Of a stretch of DNA of 16,135 bases, positions 1,087 to 16,135 are shown in pieces. This DNA comes from Acidobacteriota bacterium. GTDB lineage: Bacteria; Acidobacteriota; Terriglobia; Terriglobales; Acidobacteriaceae. The stretch lies in the NCBI GenBank assembly GCA_003224785.1, contig QHZV01000207.1, positions 1 to 16,135 on the forward strand, in the 5' to 3' direction. A program made the position numbers and the translations under genes. The notes under the pieces were generated by a model, which was not told the DNA's origin, did not search any database, and saw nothing but the letters and a program-made list of their open reading frames with translations. Every line of letters begins with the position of its first letter. The first letter of the stretch is position 1.

Positions 1087-1523
1087 ATGAAAACCAGTCC
1101 AGCCGTCAGTTCAGAAAGTGCACTCAAGCAGGTTCGCCAAATTGCACTCAACATCTCGCGTTCTTTGATTGCGGCGGGGTGCGGCTAATGTTGACTCCTC
1201 CGGAAAAGCCGGAATTCGATCATCCTTCGTCAATTCTCTATTTTAAGGTTGATGACATTCAGGCCGCTTTCGATCGACTAGTACAGAAGGGTGTGAAAGC
1301 AGAGGACAAGCCACACATTGTCGCGAGAATGCCCGATCATGATCTTTGGCTGGCTGAGTTCCGGGACTCAGAAGGCAATTTGATGAGTCTGATGTCGGAG
1401 GTGCGGAATGAAATTCCGCCGGATAGTTATTTGCCGATACAGAATCGGCTGAAGATCAAGTTAAGAATGTCGTCATTAGTGGTCGCTCCGGTGATCTCGT
1501 CGAGCGGACGAAGGGCATTGTAG
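1087..1523 (+). pseudogene. Glyoxalase/bleomycin-resistance (VOC) protein, internally deleted and frameshifted
   Basis: VOC proteins are small metalloenzymes such as glyoxalases, or antibiotic-binding proteins. Translation starts at ATG 1087 with GGAGG at 1074-1078, giving MKTSPAVSSESALKQVRQIALNI, a normal VOC N-terminus. It then runs to a stop at 1186-1188. In another frame, from about 1155, a good VOC C-terminal half follows: LAFFDCGGVRLML, ILYFKVDDIQAAFDRL and LAEFRDSEGNLMSLMSEV. The stretch expected between them (the AxxFYxxxLG block, roughly 25 residues) is absent, so the break is a deletion plus frameshift near 1150-1155. The C-terminal frame also runs past the likely natural end, through a hairpin at 1403-1419, to a stop at 1521-1523 inside convergent mnmE. 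The product is probably non-functional unless the break is an assembly error. Confidence 0.75.
1403..1419. repeat. Short palindrome at the VOC/mnmE boundary
   Basis: Perfect 7-base inverted repeat with a 3-base loop, GCGGAAT-GAA-ATTCCGC, at the apparent 3' end of the VOC frame and eight bases beyond the mnmE stop. The right arm and following bases (TCCGCCGGATAG) closely resemble those following the palindrome at 2531-2547 (TCCGCCGGACAG), suggesting one repeat family. It could act as a bidirectional transcription end, but no T-run follows. Confidence 0.55.
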
Positions 1524-2796
1524 AGGTCCAGTAATAGCATTTCGTGCGGAACGCGATTGTGAACGGTTTGGGTGGCGGCATCGAAGGCGTTGAGAGAATC
1601 CCGAACAAGCGATTGGTGGCGAGCATTGGTAAGGAATCCTGATTCCGTGGTGCCGCCCGCGTTACCGGTTACGTGCTGCAGGATGGCGGCGCGAAGTTCC
1701 GGAATCCCTTGACCTGTGAGGGCCGAGGTGCGGATTGGCGCGTCACGATTATTTGCGTGAGGCGGGAACTCTTGCCCTACCAGGTCCGCCTTATTCTCAA
1801 CCAGGACGGCCGAACGCTCTGCCACTTGCTTCAGCAGTTCCTGGTCTTCGTTGGTGAGAGGCTGGGATGCGTCCCGCACGACCAATACCATATCGGCATC
1901 GGCCAGGGCTTCCATGGATTTTTGTATTCCGATGCCTTCGGCTTCATCCAGGGCAGCACGAATTCCGGCCGTATCTATCAGCTTTACGGGAATGCCGCCA
2001 ATCGAAACCGTTTCGGTGACAAGATCGCGGGTAGTTCCAGGAGTTGCGGTCACGATGGCGCGATCGCGTTCAACTAAATAATTGAACAAACTTGATTTCC
2101 CAACATTTGGCCGACCCACGATTGCGAGCGTAAGACCTTCGTGGACAATTTTGCCGTAAGCGAATGAGCGGGCAAGTTCTTCAAGAGGAGCACGAACATT
2201 GGCTAGATCAGGTCGACCAACTTTTGTTTGACAGGCTGCAAGCGTCGGGAGAGTGCGCCTTCGAGCTGCTGGGCCGCAACTTTCGCCTGGTACAGCGTTT
2301 GAGAGTCGATCAGATCGCGGACGGCTTCGGCCTGAGTGAGATCAATGCGACCGTTGAGAAAGGCGCGCATGGTGAACTCGCCGGGTTCGGCGAGACGGGC
2401 GCCGCGCTCTAATGCGAGTTCGACGATGTGGCGGAGAACGACCGGCGATCCGTGAGCGGAGATTTCGATGATGTCGTCGGTAGTGTAGGAGTGAGGTTTG
2501 GCGAAGTAGGTGACCACGACTTGGTCGATTGCGGAGCTTTGCTCCGCCGGACAGCCGAGGGCGGCTGTCCCCGCATTCCTATGAACCGGGGTTGAATCGA
2601 GTGATCGGACAACAGTGTCCGAGCCGCACGGTTCTATGAGTTCTCCGAAAATTGCGCGGCCGGGTTCGAGATCGTGCTTGAGTCGAAGCATGGGCATTGC
2701 GATGTCGCGTGCGTCGGAGCCAGCGAAGCGCACTACACCGATTCCTCCTCGGCCGGGCGGAGTGGCGATCGCTACGATGGTGTCATCGAGGTTCAA
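1427..2796 (-). pseudogene. mnmE: MnmE (TrmE) tRNA modification GTPase, disrupted between N-terminal and G domains
   Basis: MnmE, with MnmG, installs the carboxymethylaminomethyl group on wobble U34 of some tRNAs. Reading from a TTG at 2796, [20 protein letters not shown] opens the folate-binding N-terminal domain, which continues to [20 protein letters not shown] and a stop at 2203-2205. In another frame, from about 2205 downward, comes NVRAPLEELARSFAYGKIV and then the G domain: GRPNVGKSS (P-loop), TTRD, DTAG, NKAD, and the terminal CIGK motif ending at 1427. About 35 residues normally joining these parts, including an IDF-type block, are missing, with a frameshift. The N-terminal domain also carries a 33-residue insertion (residues 57-89) made of palindromic DNA. 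As written no full-length protein is made; because mnmE is widely conserved, an assembly error is plausible. Confidence 0.85.
2530..2628 (-). repeat. In-frame palindromic insertion inside mnmE
   Basis: A 99-base stretch encodes 33 residues between GELIEP and IDQVVV, two segments that are normally close together in MnmE. It contains three perfect hairpins: GCGGAGC-TTT-GCTCCGC (2531-2547), GGACAGCCG-AGGG-CGGCTGTCC (2549-2570) and TCGGACA-ACAG-TGTCCGA (2605-2622). The insertion keeps the frame open. It looks like short intergenic palindromic elements that landed in a coding sequence, in a loop that tolerates extra residues. Exact borders are inferred from remembered MnmE sequences. Confidence 0.7.
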
Positions 2797-2925: not shown

Positions 2926-3372
2926 ATGGCCGATGTTCGTCGTGGTCTGATCATCGTGAATACTGGGCCTGGCAAGGGTAAGACGACTGCCGCCATGGGC
3001 ACGGCTTTGCGCGCCGTGGGGAACGGGATGCGTGTGCTGATGCTGCAGTTCATCAAAGGTTCGTGGCACTACGGGGAACTGGACGCGGCCAAAGCTTTCG
3101 GTGACAAATTCATCATGAAGCAGATGGGCCGTGGGTTCGTGAAAGTTGTGGTGATACTGGACGAGATCAATTATGCGATCAGCTACGGTATGCTTGATCC
3201 TGCGAAGGTGGTCGAAACGCTGAAGCAGAAGCCGGAAATGGTGCATGTGATCTTGACGGGACGCAACGCGCATCCGACAATTGTCGAGCTTGCCGATACG
3301 GTGACCGAAATGCGCCAGGTGAAGCACGCGTATGAGAAAGGCGTACTGGCGCAGAGAGGGATTGAATATTGA
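2926..3372 (+). CDS. cobO: Cob(I)alamin adenosyltransferase (CobO/BtuR type) with an apparent in-frame deletion
   Basis: CobO-type enzymes transfer the 5'-deoxyadenosyl group of ATP to cob(I)alamin. The start MADVRRGLIIVNTGPGKGKTTAAMG carries the P-loop (GPGKGKTT). LMLQFIKGSWHYGELDAA, QMGRGFVK, ILDEINYAISYGMLD and VILTGRNAHPTIVELAD are further family blocks, and the C-terminus QRGIEY is normal. The protein is 148 residues, whereas the family is usually around 175-200. After GRGFVKV it jumps straight to VVILDEINYA, so about 30 residues normally present there are missing without loss of frame. Activity is therefore doubtful. The short spacing to accD (about 100 bases, filled by a palindrome) suggests a possible shared transcript. 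Confidence 0.85.
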   Translation: MADVRRGLIIVNTGPGKGKTTAAMGTALRAVGNGMRVLMLQFIKGSWHYGELDAAKAFGDKFIMKQMGRGFVKVVVILDEINYAISYGMLDPAKVVETLKQKPEMVHVILTGRNAHPTIVELADTVTEMRQVKHAYEKGVLAQRGIEY

Positions 3373-4370: not shown

Positions 4371-4390
4371 CAGGCGGGCGAGGGCGCCTG
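4371..4390. repeat. Short palindrome between accD and folC
   Basis: CAGGCG and CGCCTG flank an 8-base centre in the 57-base accD-folC gap, followed by CCCCACACG and then the folC ATG. No T-run follows, so it is not a standard terminator. It looks like another of the short GC-rich repeats seen across this window. Confidence 0.4.
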
Positions 4391-4403
4391 CCCCACACGA
4401 CCC

Positions 4404-5849
4404 ATGTCTGCTTCCTACCAAACCGCTGTGGCACGCATGTATGCGCTCGGACACGAACTGGCGCAGACGCCTTCGCACAAGTTCGATTTGGGGCACATGC
4501 GGGTGCTGCTGACGGCGCTGGAAAATCCTGAACGGCGTTTTCCTGCGGTGCTGATTGCGGGTACGAACGGCAAAGGCTCGACCGCGGCCACGCTAGACTC
4601 GATCTTGCGTGCATCGGGATTTCGGACGGGACTTTATACGTCGCCGCACTTAATCCGAATCAACGAACGTATTCAGATCAACGGTGAGCAGATCGCGGAC
4701 GATAAGTTCGCATTGTTGCACGATTTGGTGGAACGCACGGCTGAACGGTTGGTCGAGGATGGTGAGCTGCCGTGGCATCCCAGTTTTTTTGAGATGCTGA
4801 CGGCAATAGCATTTGAATATTTCTCGACCAGCAAAGTGGAGATCGCTGTGCTCGAAGTGGGAATGGGCGGACGCCTGGATGCAACCAATGTGGTTGAGCC
4901 GCGGGTCAGTGTGATCACCGATATTTCGCTCGATCATGAGAAGTTTTTGGGCAGCACCATTGCGGAGATCGCGCGCGAGAAGGTGGGGATCATCCGGCCA
5001 CGCGGAGTTGTGGTTACACTTCCGCAGAGTCCGCAGGCGAATGACGTGATTGGGAACGCGATTTTGGAGCAAGATGCATGCGCCATAAGCGCGGTGCCTT
5101 ATGTGCCGCCGATTTCGCCAAAGGCGGAAACTTACGCGCGAAAGCGCTTAACCGCAAAAGACGCAGAGAGCGCCGCAAGCAGCGCAAAGAACAGCGGTAA
5201 CGGAATGGTGGCGCAATATCCCTTGCAGGTTATGGGGAAGCAGATCCGAGTTGAAACGGCGCTCGTCGGACGGCATCAGTTACGGAATGTTGCCCTTGCG
5301 ATAGCGACGGCGGAGGAACTCGCCACACAAGGATTTGCTATCACTGCAGAATCGATCGAGCGTGGCATTCGTGAAACTCAGTGGCCCGGGCGTTTCCAAG
5401 TGATTTCGCCATCAGGAGGGGCGCCCGAATTCGTTCTCGATGTGGCGCACAATCCCGCTGGGGCCTGGGCGCTTCGCTCGACGCTCTCGAACTGCTACGA
5501 AGAACGAAGGCTCATTCTGGTGTTTGGTGCGATGCGCGATAAGGCGATCGGCGAGATTGCAGAAATCTTGTTTCCGCTGGCGGAGCGGGTGATCGTCACC
5601 AGTGCTGACAACCCACGGTCGGCGACACCTGAGGAAATTCGGGAAGCTGCGGTTCGCACTCAGTCCGACATTGAATTGGCCAGCAACGTAGCAGCGGCCA
5701 TCGAGCGAGCGGGCATTCTGGCGGTGTCGGACAAAGATGTCCGACCTACACGCTCAGGGCGATCCGACGCAGTTGTTGTGATTACCGGCTCGATTTATGT
5801 CGTGGGTGAGGCGATGCGCACTCTGGGAGTTGGCTCCGATGGAAAATAG
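4404..5849 (+). CDS. folC: Bifunctional folylpolyglutamate synthase / dihydrofolate synthase
   Basis: FolC ligates glutamate to dihydropteroate and then to reduced folates, using ATP, in the cytoplasm. The 481-residue product carries the Mur-ligase ATP loop GTNGKGS (residues 53-59), TGLYTSPHLIRINERI (75-90), EVGMGGRLDATN (151-162), TDISLDHEKFLG (172-183), GRHQLRNVALAI (289-300) and VLDVAHNPAGAW (344-355), all family hallmarks. It is slightly long because of two low-complexity stretches, residues 245-271 and about 441-455, which are encoded by repeat-like DNA and remain in frame. It follows accD, as in many bacteria. Its last 11 bases overlap the start of the acyltransferase gene, implying translational coupling. 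Confidence 0.93.
   Translation: MSASYQTAVARMYALGHELAQTPSHKFDLGHMRVLLTALENPERRFPAVLIAGTNGKGSTAATLDSILRASGFRTGLYTSPHLIRINERIQINGEQIADDKFALLHDLVERTAERLVEDGELPWHPSFFEMLTAIAFEYFSTSKVEIAVLEVGMGGRLDATNVVEPRVSVITDISLDHEKFLGSTIAEIAREKVGIIRPRGVVVTLPQSPQANDVIGNAILEQDACAISAVPYVPPISPKAETYARKRLTAKDAESAASSAKNSGNGMVAQYPLQVMGKQIRVETALVGRHQLRNVALAIATAEELATQGFAITAESIERGIRETQWPGRFQVISPSGGAPEFVLDVAHNPAGAWALRSTLSNCYEERRLILVFGAMRDKAIGEIAEILFPLAERVIVTSADNPRSATPEEIREAAVRTQSDIELASNVAAAIERAGILAVSDKDVRPTRSGRSDAVVVITGSIYVVGEAMRTLGVGSDGK
5147..5193 (+). repeat. Repeat-like insertion in folC (ACCGCAAAAGACGCAGAG type)
   Basis: This purine-rich stretch reads ACCGCAAAAGACGCAGAG and then repeats GCGC/CGCAA-like units. It resembles the loose CGCAGAGxxCGCAGAG repeats I recall between genes in many environmental bacteria. 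It encodes about residues 247-264 of FolC (LTAKDAESAASSAKNS), a low-complexity segment between conserved VPYVPP and YPLQVMG where homologues, as I remember them, are shorter. The repeat identity is from memory. Confidence 0.45.
5726..5745. repeat. Palindrome inside the folC 3' end
   Basis: Perfect 8-base inverted repeat, GTCGGACA-AAGA-TGTCCGAC, encoding part of FolC residues 441-449. Its core TCGGACA-N4-TGTCCGA is identical to that of the palindrome at 2605-2622 inside mnmE, so the two are copies of one element family. Confidence 0.65.
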
Positions 5850-6770: not shown

Positions 6771-8255
6771 ATGCTTCGTCCCGACTACAAAGAGTTTTCT
6801 CGTCTCGCCCGCGACTCAACGCTGGTCCCCGTGGTCAAGTCGGTTATGGCGGACTTGCTTACGCCAGTTTCGGCTTTTCTTGCGATCTCGCGAGGCGAGC
6901 GGGATGCTTTTCTGCTTGAGTCGGTCGAACGCGGCGAGCAAATTGGCCGCTACACATTTCTCGGTGCGCGTCCCTACATGAAACTGCAGACCGATGGTCG
7001 GCAGACTATCGTTCAGGAAGGCAAGAAGCGCGAGCGGCACGATGGCAATGTGTTCCAGCTCGCGAAACAATTGCTTACTAAACACAAACTGGCTGCGGTT
7101 CCCGGACTGCCTCCTTTTAGCGCCGGTGCGGTCGGGTTTTGTTCTTATGATATTGTTCGCCAGCTCGAAAACATCGGCAACGAAACGAAAGACGATCTTC
7201 ACCTTCCTGACTGTGTCCTGATGTTTTTCAACCGGCTGCTGGCGTTCGATCACCTTCGACACCAAATTCACATTATCGCCGTGCCCGACGTCTCAGCCGA
7301 GAGTCCACGGCAGGCTTACGATCGCGCGGTTCGTGACATTGCCGCTCTCGAAAAGAAACTGGCGAGTGGGCTCCGGCCCGGCGAGTGGCATAAGTCTCGA
7401 GGCAAGCGCCGGGGAAGGTTTAACGTGCGGCCCCAGACAACACGAAAGGACTTTGAGCAATTAGTTCGGAATGCAAAGGAGTACATCGCGGCGGGAGATA
7501 TTTTTCAAGTTGTGCTTTCGCAGCGGTTGGACTTCACACCCGAGGTTCCGCCATTTGATATTTATCGCGCGCTGCGCGCCGGGAATCCTTCGCCGTATTT
7601 GTATTTTCTGAAAATGGGTGACACGCATGTGCTGGGATCATCGCCGGAGATGCTGGTGCGCGTGACTGGTCGCAAGCTGGAGTATCGTCCCATTGCCGGA
7701 ACGCACCCGCGCGGCAAAGACGAACTGGAAGATGCCCGTCTCGAAGAAAAGATGTTGACCGACGAAAAAGAGCGCGCCGAGCACGTGATGCTGGTTGATT
7801 TGGGGCGCAACGATTTGGGCCGGGTCAGCAAGTATGGATCGGTGAAGGTAAAGGACCTGATGTATGTGGAACGCTATTCGCATGTCATGCATTTAGTGTC
7901 GGCGCTTGAGGGCAAACTGCGGCCCGAACTGCACGCGCTGGATGCGTTTGCGGCATGTTTCCCGGCTGGAACTTTGAGCGGCGCGCCGAAAGTTCGAGCC
8001 ATGCAGATCATTGAAGAGTTGGAGCCAACCCGGCGTGGAGTTTATGGCGGTTCGGTGTTGTATGCGGATTTCGCGGGGAACCTGGATTCGTGCATTGCGA
8101 TTCGTACCATGCTGATGAAAGGCAAGAAGGCGTATTTGCAGGCGGGCGCAGGCATTGTGGCGGATTCAGATCCCGCAACGGAATATGAGGAGAGCATGAA
8201 CAAAGCGCAGGCGGTGCTACGAGCGGTGCAGACGGCGAGGGGAGCGGAAGCGTGA
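6771..8255 (+). CDS. trpE: Anthranilate synthase component I
   Basis: TrpE converts chorismate to anthranilate, the first step of tryptophan synthesis, using ammonia from the TrpG glutaminase. From ATG 6771 (MLRPDYKEFSRLARDSTLVP) the protein has 494 residues, the usual size. LLESVERGEQIGRYTFLG in the N-terminal domain is the region where LLES contributes to tryptophan feedback binding. The chorismate-binding domain shows GDIFQVVLSQR, NPSPYLYFL, LGSSPEMLVR, RPIAGTHPRG, MLVDLGRNDLGRV, FPAGTLSGAPKVRAM and GAGIVADSDPATEYEE. Earlier in-frame starts exist (6666, 6747), but they precede or overlap the TATAAT box and encode non-conserved sequence. trpG is not next to it; its stop overlaps the GH31 ATG by one base, an unusual partner. 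Confidence 0.95.
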   Translation: MLRPDYKEFSRLARDSTLVPVVKSVMADLLTPVSAFLAISRGERDAFLLESVERGEQIGRYTFLGARPYMKLQTDGRQTIVQEGKKRERHDGNVFQLAKQLLTKHKLAAVPGLPPFSAGAVGFCSYDIVRQLENIGNETKDDLHLPDCVLMFFNRLLAFDHLRHQIHIIAVPDVSAESPRQAYDRAVRDIAALEKKLASGLRPGEWHKSRGKRRGRFNVRPQTTRKDFEQLVRNAKEYIAAGDIFQVVLSQRLDFTPEVPPFDIYRALRAGNPSPYLYFLKMGDTHVLGSSPEMLVRVTGRKLEYRPIAGTHPRGKDELEDARLEEKMLTDEKERAEHVMLVDLGRNDLGRVSKYGSVKVKDLMYVERYSHVMHLVSALEGKLRPELHALDAFAACFPAGTLSGAPKVRAMQIIEELEPTRRGVYGGSVLYADFAGNLDSCIAIRTMLMKGKKAYLQAGAGIVADSDPATEYEESMNKAQAVLRAVQTARGAEA

Positions 8256-10613
8256 TGAAGAATGAGACGGGTAGAGCGGTGGTTTTCATTCTGGCATCTA
8301 TGCTGGCGAGTTCTGCCTCGGCGCAGCAACACACGCTCGTTCTCACCCGCGACAACAGCACAGTCGTGCTTGAGCCTTACGCGCCGAACATCATTCGAGT
8401 AACGCTTAGCCTGCAGAAAGATCAGGCTGCGGAAGCACCGGGCTTCGGCTTTGGCGCGCATGCGGCCGCCGAGGGTTGGAATTCAGCACATTCGGAGGCA
8501 GGCGACGTTTATCGATCGTCGCGGATGGTCGTCACAGTTGAAGCAAATCACCCCGCGAACCCCTCACGCACTGAGCGCGACATCGCGAAATTCTTCAACG
8601 GATCAGCGCCTCCCGCGCACATCATCATCAGCACACCGACTGGAAAGAAACTGCTGGAAATGACCGGCTGGTCGCAGTCGGTCCCCAATTACAAAGACGG
8701 CAATGCGCAACTCGAGAACGATCGGCGGCCAAGTGATGAGAAGTTTTATCAGGTGGGCGCGACGTTCGTCTCTCCGGATGACGAGCATTATTACGGCCTC
8801 GGCCAGAACCAGGAAGGTTTTCTCGATCATCGCGGACACACGGTTGAGTGCTGGCACAACTACACCGCGACCGGCGCGCCGAGCATCTGCGTGCCGTTTG
8901 TGGTGACGAACAAAGGTTATGGAATGATCTGGGACAATCCGTCGAAGACGACGATTGAACCAGGAGACGAACTGGATTTCGCAAGTGGGGAATCGGGTCT
9001 CGTTTTTTGTGATTGCCGGCAACGATACCGACGAAATTTATTCCGGATATCGGTTGCTAACCGGAACGACACCGATGCTGCCCAAAGCTGCGTACGGATT
9101 CGTGCAATGCAAGCAGCGCTACATCACGCAGGAAGAGATGTTGAACGTTGCCAAGGGATATCGTGAGCGGCATTTGCCTGCCGATGTGCTGGTGCTCGAC
9201 TGGTTTTATTACAACACCATGGGCCAGCTCGATTTCGTTCCCGACAGATTTCCGGATCCGGCGGCCATGAACAAGCAGTTGCACGACATGGGGTTTCAAA
9301 CCATGATCAGCGTCTGGCCGCGGTTTACAAAGCAGTCGCGCTATTACGATTTCATTCTGAAGCACGGCTGGTTCGAGCACCTGGCGGATGGGACTCCGAC
9401 CAACGGTTTGCCATACGATCGTGCCGGCTCCGATATTGATACGTCGAATCCCGAGGCGGCGCGCTGGTATTGGGGGGTGATTCGCGACAATATTCTCAGC
9501 GAGGGTTTCGATTGTCTGTGGATGGACGAGACTGAACCCGACCTGCCGCCCAATGGCAGTTATCTTTCGGTTGGGCCGGGGACGCGATACTTCAACATCT
9601 ATCCGCTGGTGCATACCAGTGCAATGTACGACGGGTTTCGGCGTGACGTGAAACATCGTGCCCTGATTCTGTCCCGCGATGCGTATCTCGGATCGCAGCG
9701 AAATGGGACGATGATCTGGTCATCGGATATTTATCCAACATGGGACGCATTCAGGCGGCAGATTCCAACCGGCCTCGACTTCACTGCCTCAGGCATGGCG
9801 TATTGGACGAACGATGTTGGCGGATGGCAGTATTTGCCGCTAGTGCATCATCCCGCGCATGCGCCACTGCTCGATCCTTCCGATGCTCGCGAGAACGTCG
9901 GCGGATACGATGACTATCCCGAACTTTATGCGAGGTGGTTTGAGTACGGAACGTTTCTGCCGATCATGCGCACGCACGGCAGCCGCAAATATAACGAGGT
10001 TTGGTCGTATGGCAAACAGGCCGAACCGATTTTGGAGAAGTATTTGAAGTTGCGATATCAGCTGATGCCGTACATTTATTCGCTCGGGTACAAGACCTAT
10101 CAGACTGGTGCGCCGTTCATGCGAGCGCTGTTTATGGATTTTCCGAATGATCCGAAGATCGCGGATCTGCGTGACGAGTACATGTTCGGTCCGGCATTTT
10201 TGGTTGCGCCTGTAACTGAGCAGGGCGCGACCAGCCGCGAAATTTACCTTCCTGCGGGAACCGACTGGTTCAACTACTGGACTAGCGAGCGGGTACATGG
10301 TGGTCAGACGATCAAAGTTGATGCACCTGTCGACATCCTGCCTTTGTTCGTGCGAGCAGGTTCGGTTGTGCCATTAGGCTCATCAATCGAGAGCACGAGC
10401 CAGGCGCAGAAGATTGAGCACGTGCGGGTTTATCCAGGCGCGGATGGAGAGTTCACAATTTACTCCGATGACGGAAACACTTATGGCTATGAAAAAGGCG
10501 ATTTCAAAACGACGCGATTGCACTGGGATGATGCGGCACAGAGGTTGACGCACGAAGGCGCGTCGGCGTGGACCGAGCCGGACTCGCAGATTCTTGAGCG
10601 CGTGACGCCGTGA
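8255..10613 (+). pseudogene. Secreted GH31 glycosidase (alpha-xylosidase-like), frameshifted
   Basis: GH31 enzymes cleave alpha-glycosidic bonds by a retaining mechanism. From ATG 8255, MKNETGRAVVFILASMLASSASAQQ is a convincing signal peptide with an AxA-type cleavage site. The N-terminal beta domain continues (YYGLGQNQEGFLDHRG, GYGMIWDNPSKTTIEPG) until about 8963-8966. There the frame must change to reach NWISQVGNRVSFFVIAG and the catalytic barrel. The barrel has QCKQRY, WFYYNTMGQLDF, the nucleophile region LWMDETEPD (Asp codon 9525-9527) and the acid/base region WSSDIYPTW (Asp codon 9726-9728), then a normal C-terminal beta domain. A loss of about 8 or 11 bases (two or so to four residues after EPG) would explain the shift. 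If it is real, a prematurely terminated protein results. Substrate choice is inferred from resemblance. The ATG overlaps the trpE stop, with a GAGGGGAG ribosome-binding site. Confidence 0.85.
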
Positions 10614-13143: not shown

Positions 13144-13752
13144 TCAGGCGTTGCGATTGGTCCGCACTACAGTCGTAGCTGTGAGCCAAGAGATCGCTAG
13201 CCCCGCAAGAAGGGCCAGACCCCCGCCCAGAAATAAAATGCGTCGGCCATGCCCGATCGCGATATCAACATCATTGAGCGGATAGGCCAGGCGCACTGCG
13301 CCCCCCGAAACCGGCGCAGACGCATAAAGCACCGCGACGCCATAATCATTTCTCTTGCGGGTCACGACGCTGGTTTCTCCACGCAGAGCGGCCACAAACT
13401 CGGGCCGGCGGCCTTCATTTTCGAGCGCTGAAAGTTGGACTTCGGAGTCCGCGACGACTCTCCCGTTTGTGTCAATTACGGTCGCGCGCGCACCAGCTGA
13501 AAGCCCTTCCTGCGCGGCGATATCTTCGACCTTGTGCTCGTGGTCGGTGTTGACTCGGGCAGCAAACATCTGTGTCTTCTGGGTGAGATTGCGCGCGATT
13601 TCCACCCGCAACGCATCTTCCCAGAAACGGTGAACGCCATAGCCTACGCTGACTGCGACGACCGCAATCATCGCAATAAAAGAGCCAAGCAGAATAAGAA
13701 AGATGCGCTTGCGAGTCGAGTTTGCAGGCACTGCTACCGGTTCAGTGGCCAT
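13144..13752 (-). CDS. Sensor domain of a PhoR-like histidine kinase, without the kinase
   Basis: The 202-residue protein has two membrane helices (about 16-40 and 171-193) flanking an extracytoplasmic domain. That domain contains ARATVIDTNGRVVADSEV (about 88-105), ENEGRRPEFVAALRGE (111-126) and APVSGGAVRLAYPL, the pattern of PhoR-like sensor domains. It stops about nine residues after helix 2, where a HAMP and kinase domain would normally begin; neither is found in the 71 bases before the sigma gene or inside it. It is therefore a truncated kinase remnant or a stand-alone sensor. The ATG overlaps the end of sucA by 11 bases, so it is probably translated by coupling. Confidence 0.65.
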   Translation of the reverse strand: MATEPVAVPANSTRKRIFLILLGSFIAMIAVVAVSVGYGVHRFWEDALRVEIARNLTQKTQMFAARVNTDHEHKVEDIAAQEGLSAGARATVIDTNGRVVADSEVQLSALENEGRRPEFVAALRGETSVVTRKRNDYGVAVLYASAPVSGGAVRLAYPLNDVDIAIGHGRRILFLGGGLALLAGLAISWLTATTVVRTNRNA

Positions 13753-16135
13753 TGGCGGTCAAGGCCAGCGAGAGAATGGTTTTCTGTTCAACATCATGCG
13801 CTTTCGCGGAACCGGTGGCTGGGCTGGGGCTCGCCGAACGCTTCACAGAAAGAATGGGGCGGTCTCCGGCCAAGCGTCGCAGCCGCGGAAGAATGTAGTT
13901 GAGCGCGCCCATGTTAGAGGGTTCTTCCTGCACCCAGACGATTTCGGCGTCCGGGTATCGCGAGAGTTCGGCTGCGAGTTCGGTCTCTGGAAATGGGTAG
14001 AGCTGCTCGACAAATGCGATCGCGACATCCGAGATTTTCTTCTTCTTGCGTTCCATACGAAGCTCGTGCCCGATCTTGCCAGTGCAGAGCAGAATGCGGC
14101 GAGCTTCATGGACTTCCGCATCGGGACGCACCCGCAGGAAATTGCCGCTAGAGAATTGATCGATCGCAGACGATGCCTCGGGATGGCGCAGCATGCTCTT
14201 AGGCGTAAATACTACCAGCGGCTTTCGCCATGGACGCAGCGCCTGCCTGCGAAGCAGATGGAAGTATTGCGCAGCGGTTGAGGGCTGCGCGATTTGGAAA
14301 TTATCAAAAGCTGCGAGTTGCAGAAATCGTTCAATGCGGGCGCTCGAGTGCTCGGGCCCCTGACCTTCATATCCGTGAGGAAGCAGAAGGACAAGTCCCG
14401 AGAGCAGGTCCCACTTGGCTTCGCCGGAAACGATGAACTGATCAATCACTGCCTGCGCCACATTGGCGAAGTCGCCGAATTGCGCCTCCCATAAAACCAG
14501 TGTCTCGGGGTAATCGCGGCTGTAGCCGTATTCAAAACCCAACACGCCGGCTTCAGAGAGCGTCGAGTTATAAATTTGGCAGCGAGCCTGACCATCTGAA
14601 ATGTGCTCCAGAGGAACATATTCCTGCTCATTCTCGATATCTAGCAGAACCGAGTGGCGCTGATTGAACGTGCCGCGCCGGCTGTCCTGCCCGCTGAGCC
14701 TGATCGGGGTCCCGGATTTAAGCAAGCTGCCAAAGGCCAGAGCTTCAGCCATCCCATAATCAACCGGGCGCTTGCCAGTTCCCATCTCGGCGCGCTGTTC
14801 CAGCAGTTTGCCAACTTTGGGATGAATGTGGAAGCTGGCAGGGAAAGTTGTGAGCCGCTGCGTCACCTGCGCCAATTCTTCTGAAGAGACAGACGTCTCA
14901 ACTTCATATTGCGGTTTGTGGCGCAGTCCTTTGTATTTGTCCCAGTAATCTGGAAGCTGACGCAGGCTGGGCTTCTTTCGGATAGATCCCGCGCGCTTTT
15001 GTGCAGCTTCTAATTCAGCTTTGATCCCGTCCGCACGGCTCCGCGCGTCTTGCAGACCGTTGTCGTCGGCGTAGATTTCCCAGAGCGGCGGATGTTCTTT
15101 AATCGCTTTGTAGATCAGAGGCTGAGTAATGGTTGGATCGTCCACTTCGCTGTGGCCATGGCGACGATAGCCGATCAGGTCAACCACCACATCGCTGCCG
15201 AATGTGTAGCGATAATCGAGCGCCAGCCGCGCTATGCGGATGACTGCATCTACATCTTCGGCATTGACATGAAAAATGGGTACGTCCTGGCGGCGCGCAA
15301 GCTGCGCCGCAAACAACGAAGAATGCAGCTCGCGCGAAGTCGTCGTGAATCCAATCAGGTTGTTGACGATCACATGCACGGTTCCGCCGACGGTGTAACC
15401 CGGAATGTCCGCAAGATTCAGAGTCTCAGCGAATACGCCTTGTCCAGCGAATGCGCCGTCACCGTGCACCAGCAATGGCAAGAACTGCTTGACGCCGCCC
15501 TTGCCTGCGCGATCTTGCTTGGCGCGAGTTCGGCCGACGGTCACCCGGTCAACCGCTTCCAGATGACTCGGATTCGAAACCAGATGAATATCACGTCACC
15601 GCCGCCCAGTACGCTGCGGGGGTCCACATCTTCAAAACCAGCGAAAACTTCTTCCGGCGCGCGCTTGGCGATGTGCGCCACCACGTTCAGGCGTCCGCGA
15701 TGGCTCATGCCCATGACCAGTTCAACTGCCCCGTACTGTCCCGCGCCATCGAGAATTTCATCAACCAGAGGAATGAGCGCGGTGACGCCTTCGAGTGAAA
15801 ATCGCTTGGTGCCGAGATACCGTTGTTGCAACACGAGTTCGAACAGATCGGCGCGGATCAGCTGATCGAGTGCGCGTTCCTGATCAACCGGCGCAGGCTC
15901 GGCCTCAAGTCGTTCCTGAATCCAACGGCGGCGCTCAGGATCTGGAATGTGCATGAACTCGACGCCGACGGTGCTGCAATAAAAATTGCGGGCTTCCTGG
16001 GCAAATTCTCCCTCGAGCTGCAGTTCGGGATGCGGCACCGGCGCAAGAAAACCGAGAGGATCGAGGTCGGCTTCCAGGTAGCCCCAATGGCGAAAGGCGT
16101 CGAATACACGCTCGCGCTCGGTCTGGGGCGCTTCC
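13742..16135 (-). pseudogene. sucA: 2-oxoglutarate dehydrogenase E1 component, frameshifted and 5' partial
   Basis: SucA is the thiamine-diphosphate E1 enzyme that decarboxylates 2-oxoglutarate in the TCA cycle. The frame is open to the window edge (FDAFRHWGYLEADLDPLGF) and continues through PHPELQLEGEFAQEARNFYCS, LVMGMSHRGRLNV and VFAGFEDVDPRSVLGGGDV. It then shifts near 15589-15592 and stops at 15541-15543. The other frame carries HLVSNPSHLEAVD, then GRTRAKQDR, HGDGAFAGQG with VNN (the TPP motif), YRRHGHSEVDDP, LSGQDSRRGTFNQRH, ALGFEYGYSRDYPE-like blocks, LLPHGYEGQGPEHSS and SASPSPATGSAKAH to the stop at 13742. Between GDV and HLVSNPSH about 17 residues are missing, including the conserved KYHMG histidine. 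The C-terminal part is complete. The gene begins beyond the window. Confidence 0.9.

Follow-up and report, generated by a model that had tools for sequence, protein, structure and literature searches.

The closest described counterparts of the repeats considered here are the GTAG-tagged REPs, which are mostly extragenic, some of them lying wholly inside ORFs, including those of tRNA synthetases, uvrA, recB and truB; in recB of Xanthomonas different REPs occupy about one site (PMC3733652, in its available sections). The same sections place GTAG repeats in Proteobacteria, Cyanobacteria, Chloroflexi and PVC, and mention Acidobacteria with TIR-flanked transposases. REPs of subclass 2.4, as presented in the part of PMC6006769 at hand, are inserted in tnpA-REP genes with the frame intact, for which the authors of that article cite flexible linkers and loops. 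A table row of PMC12306157, the portion of that source used here, includes genomes of Granulicella and of two further Acidobacteriota, so the mere presence of REPs in this phylum is probably no novelty.

Our repeats share with the GTAG-tagged REPs, as these appear in the available sections of PMC3733652, the terminal GTRG foot, the stem, the short loop and the occurrence in inverted (HH) pairs. They differ from them in that one of our families, E1, has a second hairpin, and in that a single loop holding several families across dozens of species is unmatched in those sections. The carrier in subclass 2.4 is the transposase gene itself (PMC6006769, same part), whereas here the carriers are housekeeping genes. 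A search of mainly open literature gave, among the matches listed and the text available for them, no report of REPs within MnmE or within genes of acidobacteria. REPs inside genes have been described from other phyla; what appears to be new is the MnmE loop as a recurrent landing site.

The window, i.e. the whole stretch of 16,135 nucleotides analysed, comes from an Acidobacteriaceae MAG of 2.61 Mb (490 contigs, 65.7% complete). Handles beginning with L and G denote loci and genomes in this analysis, respectively, G000 being the window's own MAG. The features of the window discussed below are as follows:

1427..2119, minus strand: mnmE C-terminal part (G domain, helical domain), in a different frame
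2203..2796, minus strand: mnmE N-terminal part (TrmE_N and start of the helical domain) with the expanded loop, ending at a stop (2203) that follows a frameshift
2530..2631, minus strand: expanded loop of 34 codons between GELIE and IDQVVV
2530..2576, minus strand: E1 REP unit, consisting of a GCGG foot (2571-2574), hairpin B and hairpin A; translated, 16 residues
2531..2547, minus strand: E1 hairpin A (the variable second hairpin), GCGGAGC-TTT-GCTCCGC, with a 7-bp stem
2549..2570, minus strand: E1 hairpin B, GGACAGCCG-AGGG-CGGCTGTCC, with a 9-bp stem and a 4-nt loop
2577..2603, no strand: 27-nt spacer separating the two REPs
2604..2627, minus strand: worn E3 REP, with a GCGG foot (2624-2627) and a hairpin (2605-2622); translated CGSDTVVR
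4373..4396, minus strand: E2-like REP in the intergenic stretch upstream of folC, differing from the pattern by 3 mismatches
5726..5749, minus strand: E3 REP copy with a GTAG foot, 0 mismatches to the GTNG-foot pattern; in frame near the folC C-terminus (SDKDVRPT)

The three palindromes from which the sequence-only reading had started (2531-2547, 2549-2570 and 2605-2622) are present as described, the last being TCGGACA-ACAG-TGTCCGA with a 7-bp stem and a 4-nt loop, and the mnmE frame is open through all of them, in the minus-strand ORF 2203-2796, which matches TrmE_N. In both REP copies within mnmE the foot, canonically GTRG, has decayed to GCGG. The same reading had proposed an in-frame insertion. 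An extra segment relative to other MnmE proteins is indeed there; it goes back to more than one event (it holds the worn E3, the 27-nt spacer and E1), and a single 33-codon insertion was rejected, since the parts of the insert differ in history.

Compared with L099 and L105, the window's mnmE has a 76-nt gap directly after KLVDLI (2203-2206), which shifts the frame and leaves the C-terminal part as a separate ORF (1427-2119). Among the neighbouring genes, about 50 internal residues are seemingly absent from the cob(I)yrinic acid adenosyltransferase (2926-3372), sucA is divided between frames, with a gap (13742-15544 and 15541-16038), and a glycosidase-like gene is perhaps also split (8252-9166 and 8955-10613). 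Such gaps in mnmE and its neighbours may reflect decay or MAG assembly error. Together with the low completeness and the 490 contigs, they are what could be said for regarding the loop itself as an artefact of a poor assembly; we consider this hardly credible, because a loop of the same type is seen in many named MAGs, whose isolate names differ, in mnmE ORFs that mostly measure 450-600 codons from stop to stop. As the window's mnmE is broken downstream, tolerance of the insert is argued from relatives with open frames, e.g. L099, L105 and L129.

The repeat families were defined by searches of the host MAG and of related genomes. The 22-nt second hairpin occurs at 4 exact places in the 2.6-Mb MAG and at 10 with up to 2 mismatches (reversed-pattern control: 0), and BLAST with the whole segment gave 8 further matches, all of them within query bases 1-56, which cover hairpins one and two. 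Aligned copies define the E1 unit as a GTRG foot, hairpin B, a 2-nt link and the variable hairpin A, about 47 bp in total. The third hairpin found no partner by BLAST, yet its uniqueness was rejected, as the E3 pattern GTGGGTCGGACANNNNTGTCCGAC (2 mismatches) recovers its family with 25 matches in the MAG (11 forward, 14 reverse), some of which are the two strands of one site. The hairpins are therefore multicopy in the host, and the objection that they might be unique to this locus falls.

Of 16 genomes tested, 12, including G000, contain matches to the E2 pattern GTGGCGCGGGCGNNNNCGCCCGCG, with 12 to 89 in each (reversed control: 1 match each in G004, G059 and G046, and 2 in G053), while E3 has matches in 10 of 16 (reversed control: 1 each in G170 and G046). 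E1, at 2 mismatches, is present in 29 of 120 family genomes, with up to 58 matches per genome and no match of the reversed control anywhere; this survey comprised family genomes at least 80% complete plus the window's own MAG. In a class-wide draw of 151 genomes, 29 of them from the family, the exact E1 pattern was found in 2, both of these family members; in the 122 that do not belong to the family, the number with exact copies was 0. Among the titles of named relatives are Candidatus Sulfotelmatobacter, gp1 Acidobacteria and Acidobacteriaceae MAGs.

The class of these elements was judged by the published canonical REP rule, taken from the part of PMC6006769 at hand. The E1, E2 and E3 families carry a GTAG or GTGG foot 0-2 nt from the stem, and the window's hairpins, at 9 bp/4 nt and 7 bp/4 nt, lie within the range of the rule for paired stem (7-20 bp) and loop (2-5 nt). 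Copies are many and mostly extragenic, 68 of the 86 E1 copies read having no assigned gene. These are multicopy repeats found mostly outside recognised genes, fitting the rule and occurring in both orientations. A resemblance to the palindromic elements of Rickettsia had also been suggested, and it holds in one respect: in both cases palindromic repeats are translated in frame in many unrelated protein genes (PMC10969869 and PMC3733652, both in available sections). However, the Rickettsia elements are about 150 bp long (PMC10969869) and CGTC-tagged (PMC3733652), whereas ours measure about 24-48 bp, with a GTRG foot and no CGTC tag at one end. An assignment to the Rickettsia type was therefore rejected, the tag being wrong.

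Two further palindromes, which we named E4 and E5, are known here from loops, not by genome-wide copy number. E4, the longer one (peptide like EVKxPTLxAKxAARMGHP), occurs in the MnmE loops of L121, L125, L131, L158 and L161, and no GTRG foot was seen on it in these five loops. The short E5-like palindrome (peptides FDSAQGR, SASSGQA, PALSLSKG) is nested in other repeats in the MnmE loops of L125, L130, L135 and L157; a peptide similar to these three is also found in an AMP-binding enzyme (L219).

The alignment with relatives, proposed as a check in the sequence-only reading, shows that the segment is not a conserved part of MnmE. The mnmE match, obtained in 112 of 120 relatives, either runs through unbroken or is interrupted at query residues ~60 to ~87. 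The TrmE_N match is divided in two by the segment, and the solved MnmEs 1xzp and 9hip align up to about residue 54 and again from about residue 85, skipping the stretch between. A plain MnmE loop between GELIEP and IDxVVV has about 6 residues, typically like P-x-x-x-E-R. For the comparison, the 157 loci L022-L178 were reduced to 147 extracted loops (L096, the same gene as L047, was dropped, and 9 loci had no extractable loop), representing 127 distinct proteins. The named loci are the best 80 of 353, ranked with the window's protein, and one of the six search words, EQSSAIDQ, falls in the loop, so this 80-locus set favours long, E1-bearing loops; in the genome-search set, which overlaps it in species, a family match was found in 15 of 69 loops.

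Among the 127 loops, 40 were labelled short (<12 residues), and the longest has 66 residues. A family pattern together with its foot was found in 45, compared with 0-2 in mnmE windows of the same size (5 draws) and 0-1 in shuffles (5). The published REP rule in its short-hairpin form, applied without knowledge of the families, picked out 30 loops, against a mean of 0.5 (maximum 3) per 127 in equal mnmE windows elsewhere and a mean of 0.1 per 127 in shuffled loops; the window's own loop is outside these 30 because its feet have decayed. Rule-fitting REPs reach 3.2 per kb in the loops and 0.08 per kb in the mnmE flanks (39x). The loop is GC-rich and variable, and palindromes might be expected to arise by chance in such a low-constraint segment, but the shuffled loops and the copies elsewhere in the genomes speak so clearly against this that we rejected it, its probability being next to nil.

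At least three REP families are represented in the loops; their members occur in either orientation and may be nested or form inverted pairs. E1 itself occurs in both orientations, and inverted E2/E3 pairs with outward feet are found e.g. in L053, L108, L132 and L146; the latter arrangement is the HH dimer described in PMC3733652 (available sections). We suggest that the insert very probably consists of GTRG-footed REP elements, inserted in frame into a permissive MnmE loop. The same loop is occupied in many species, with turnover between close relatives.

This turnover is seen when MnmE proteins that are closely similar outside the loop are compared. L125 and L146 (93.2% identical outside the loop) carry E4 with a nested E5 and an E2 pair, respectively. 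The core of the window's protein (~158 aligned residues) is 92.4% identical to that of L099, in which the E1-type element has the opposite orientation, and 90.5% identical to that of L133, which has a short loop. L138 contains a second E1-type unit, its close relative L129 only one, and E5 is nested in E1 (L135), in E4 (L125) and in E3 (L157).

At the same time, part of the pattern is inherited. On a FastTree tree of MnmE without the loop, with REP presence labels in 49 of 127 rows (some assigned by peptide), presence and absence changed 26 times, fewer than under shuffled labels (mean 39, minimum 30), so REP presence is partly inherited, alongside much change. Single REP types change 4 to 12 times, and for three of six types (E2 plus, E2 minus and E3 minus) the changes about equal the shuffled means. 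As for position and phase, 19 of the 127 loops have GTRG at offset 4, counted from the loop start, and 7 have it at offset 10, with 90 loops being at least 30 nt long; the worn E3 of the window has a left-border offset common to many relatives. All right-hand feet with an 8-bp stem (E2/E3 type) share a single phase (12/12), and E2 and E3 each keep to one reading phase per orientation (one L110 label being a strand artefact). In the left hairpin, pairing is kept across stem changes, with 27 cells showing changes on both sides versus 10 in shuffled data, in rows selected for pairing. That alignment used 18 of 30 rows, 4 identical and 8 poorly paired or E1-type rows being left out, and the rows kept pair at 6 or more of 8 positions, L101 excepted.

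These observations fit either a near-fixed entry point of the left element or its descent from one old pair with stem replacement, and the near-fixed left offset could reflect common descent for that element. Extended to the whole insert, such a scenario would involve a single ancient insertion of an inverted REP pair into MnmE, inherited vertically, with stems altered by mutation or by gene conversion from genomic copies. The offsets, the single phases, the two-sided stem changes and the reduced number of presence changes all speak for it. Nevertheless, we regard it as unlikely, since E1 stands at other offsets and in both orientations, close relatives have short loops or different elements, and there are the tandem gain in L138 relative to L129 and the nested E5. 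The compensatory differences in the left hairpin could also be read as retention for a function of mnmE mRNA or DNA structure, e.g. attenuation or a nuclease site; this seems very improbable, as 78 of the 127 loops have no labelled REP and the elements vary in sequence, number and place. Repeated entry of REPs into the loop remains our preferred reading for the insert as a whole.

Other conserved genes carry the repeats in frame as well. The 86 E1 copies read comprise 77 from G003 (22), G005 (13), G170 (35) and G157 (7), and 9 of the 10 own-genome places of G000; G170 and G157 are partly covered, G170 having at least 33 places among 52 matches. A strict codon-score test placed 9 of the 86 copies inside genes, while reading of the open frames with a Pfam and NCBIfam check found 18 in frame, in 15 genes. 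The hosts are ValS, SelA, RecG, an AMP-binding enzyme, protoporphyrinogen oxidase, LipB, AlaS (2 copies), DusB (G003), a peptidase C26, a heptosyltransferase, Lhr (2), a UvrC-like protein (2) and a GAF/zinc-ribbon protein, and, in G000, MnmE and DusB. The weakest cases are two: in the UvrC-like protein the first copy lies upstream of the best family match listed, and in the GAF/zinc-ribbon protein the copy is in a linker. A DinG-like frame was excluded from the count because the copy precedes the conserved part. The in-gene share is 15/44 in the window's genus versus 3/42 in G170 and G157 together (Fisher p 0.003), with G170 alone having 1 of 35 copies inside a gene.

DusB is a second REP-carrying loop like that of MnmE. 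Its plain form has 18 residues, and it contains E1 minus in G000 and E1 plus in G003; the part of DusB beyond the E1 copy is supported by relatives, not by Pfam. Loops were obtained from 20 of 30 DusB loci (an mnmE locus in the same set, L091, yielded none), and 5 of the 20 gave a family match (2 of the 5 at the 3-mismatch limit), four of these in the window's genus.

As for how the copies arrive, the REP literature points to a REP-mobilising HUH transposase (RAYT/TnpA-REP), which would deliver them on single-stranded DNA. Arrivals within genes would persist only in a flexible loop, with a length that is a multiple of three and without a stop. The consensus E1 is stop-free in 6 of 6 frames with the GTGG foot and in 5 of 6 with GTAG, and since it is nearly stop-free, most insertions of the right length would stay translatable. 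Flanked by a beta strand on either side, the MnmE loop tolerates inserts of widely differing kinds, so that copies would collect there, later to be replaced, nested into or worn down. In the AlphaFold model of L099 the loop is predicted between strands 48-54 and 91-100, with pLDDT below 50; the model (cut at residue 483, 16 sequences, mean pLDDT 58.7) is weak and usable for loop position only. The same model has a second low-confidence insertion at residues 384-427, in the C-terminal half. The tolerance would so have a simple reason, a loop that this weak model suggests to be flexible and a repeat that is rarely stopped.

PF01797 (Y1_Tnp) is present in 17 of 17 genomes, with 2 matches in G000, although RAYT and IS200 cannot be told apart by this domain alone. 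Rule-fitting REPs were found at 8 of 30 PF01797 loci, i.e. 0.10 per kb versus a background of 0.08 per kb drawn from partly different genomes, which is no clear enrichment, and therefore no cognate transposase is claimed here. In G170, one PF01797 gene has an E2 copy in its vicinity. Eight hand-picked E1-rich genomes and eight E1-free ones differ weakly in their Y1_Tnp counts (mean 9.5 versus 5.6, p 0.04).

Taken together, the MnmE loop appears to serve REPs as a recurrent landing site that tolerates their translation. More speculatively, it might be a preferred, not just tolerated, target, entered by several families at a near-fixed position and phase by the GELIEP codons, and the repeats might have evolved their near-six-frame openness, making coding DNA a usable niche for spread; we put this two-part proposal forward as a tentative and rather doubtful one.

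One loop in which close relatives have acquired different REPs offers many comparable insertion events beside relatives with short loops. It suggests a selfish repeat that can use the translated loops of housekeeping enzymes as a niche, and variable loops in acidobacterial proteins may be translated repeats and not functional domains.
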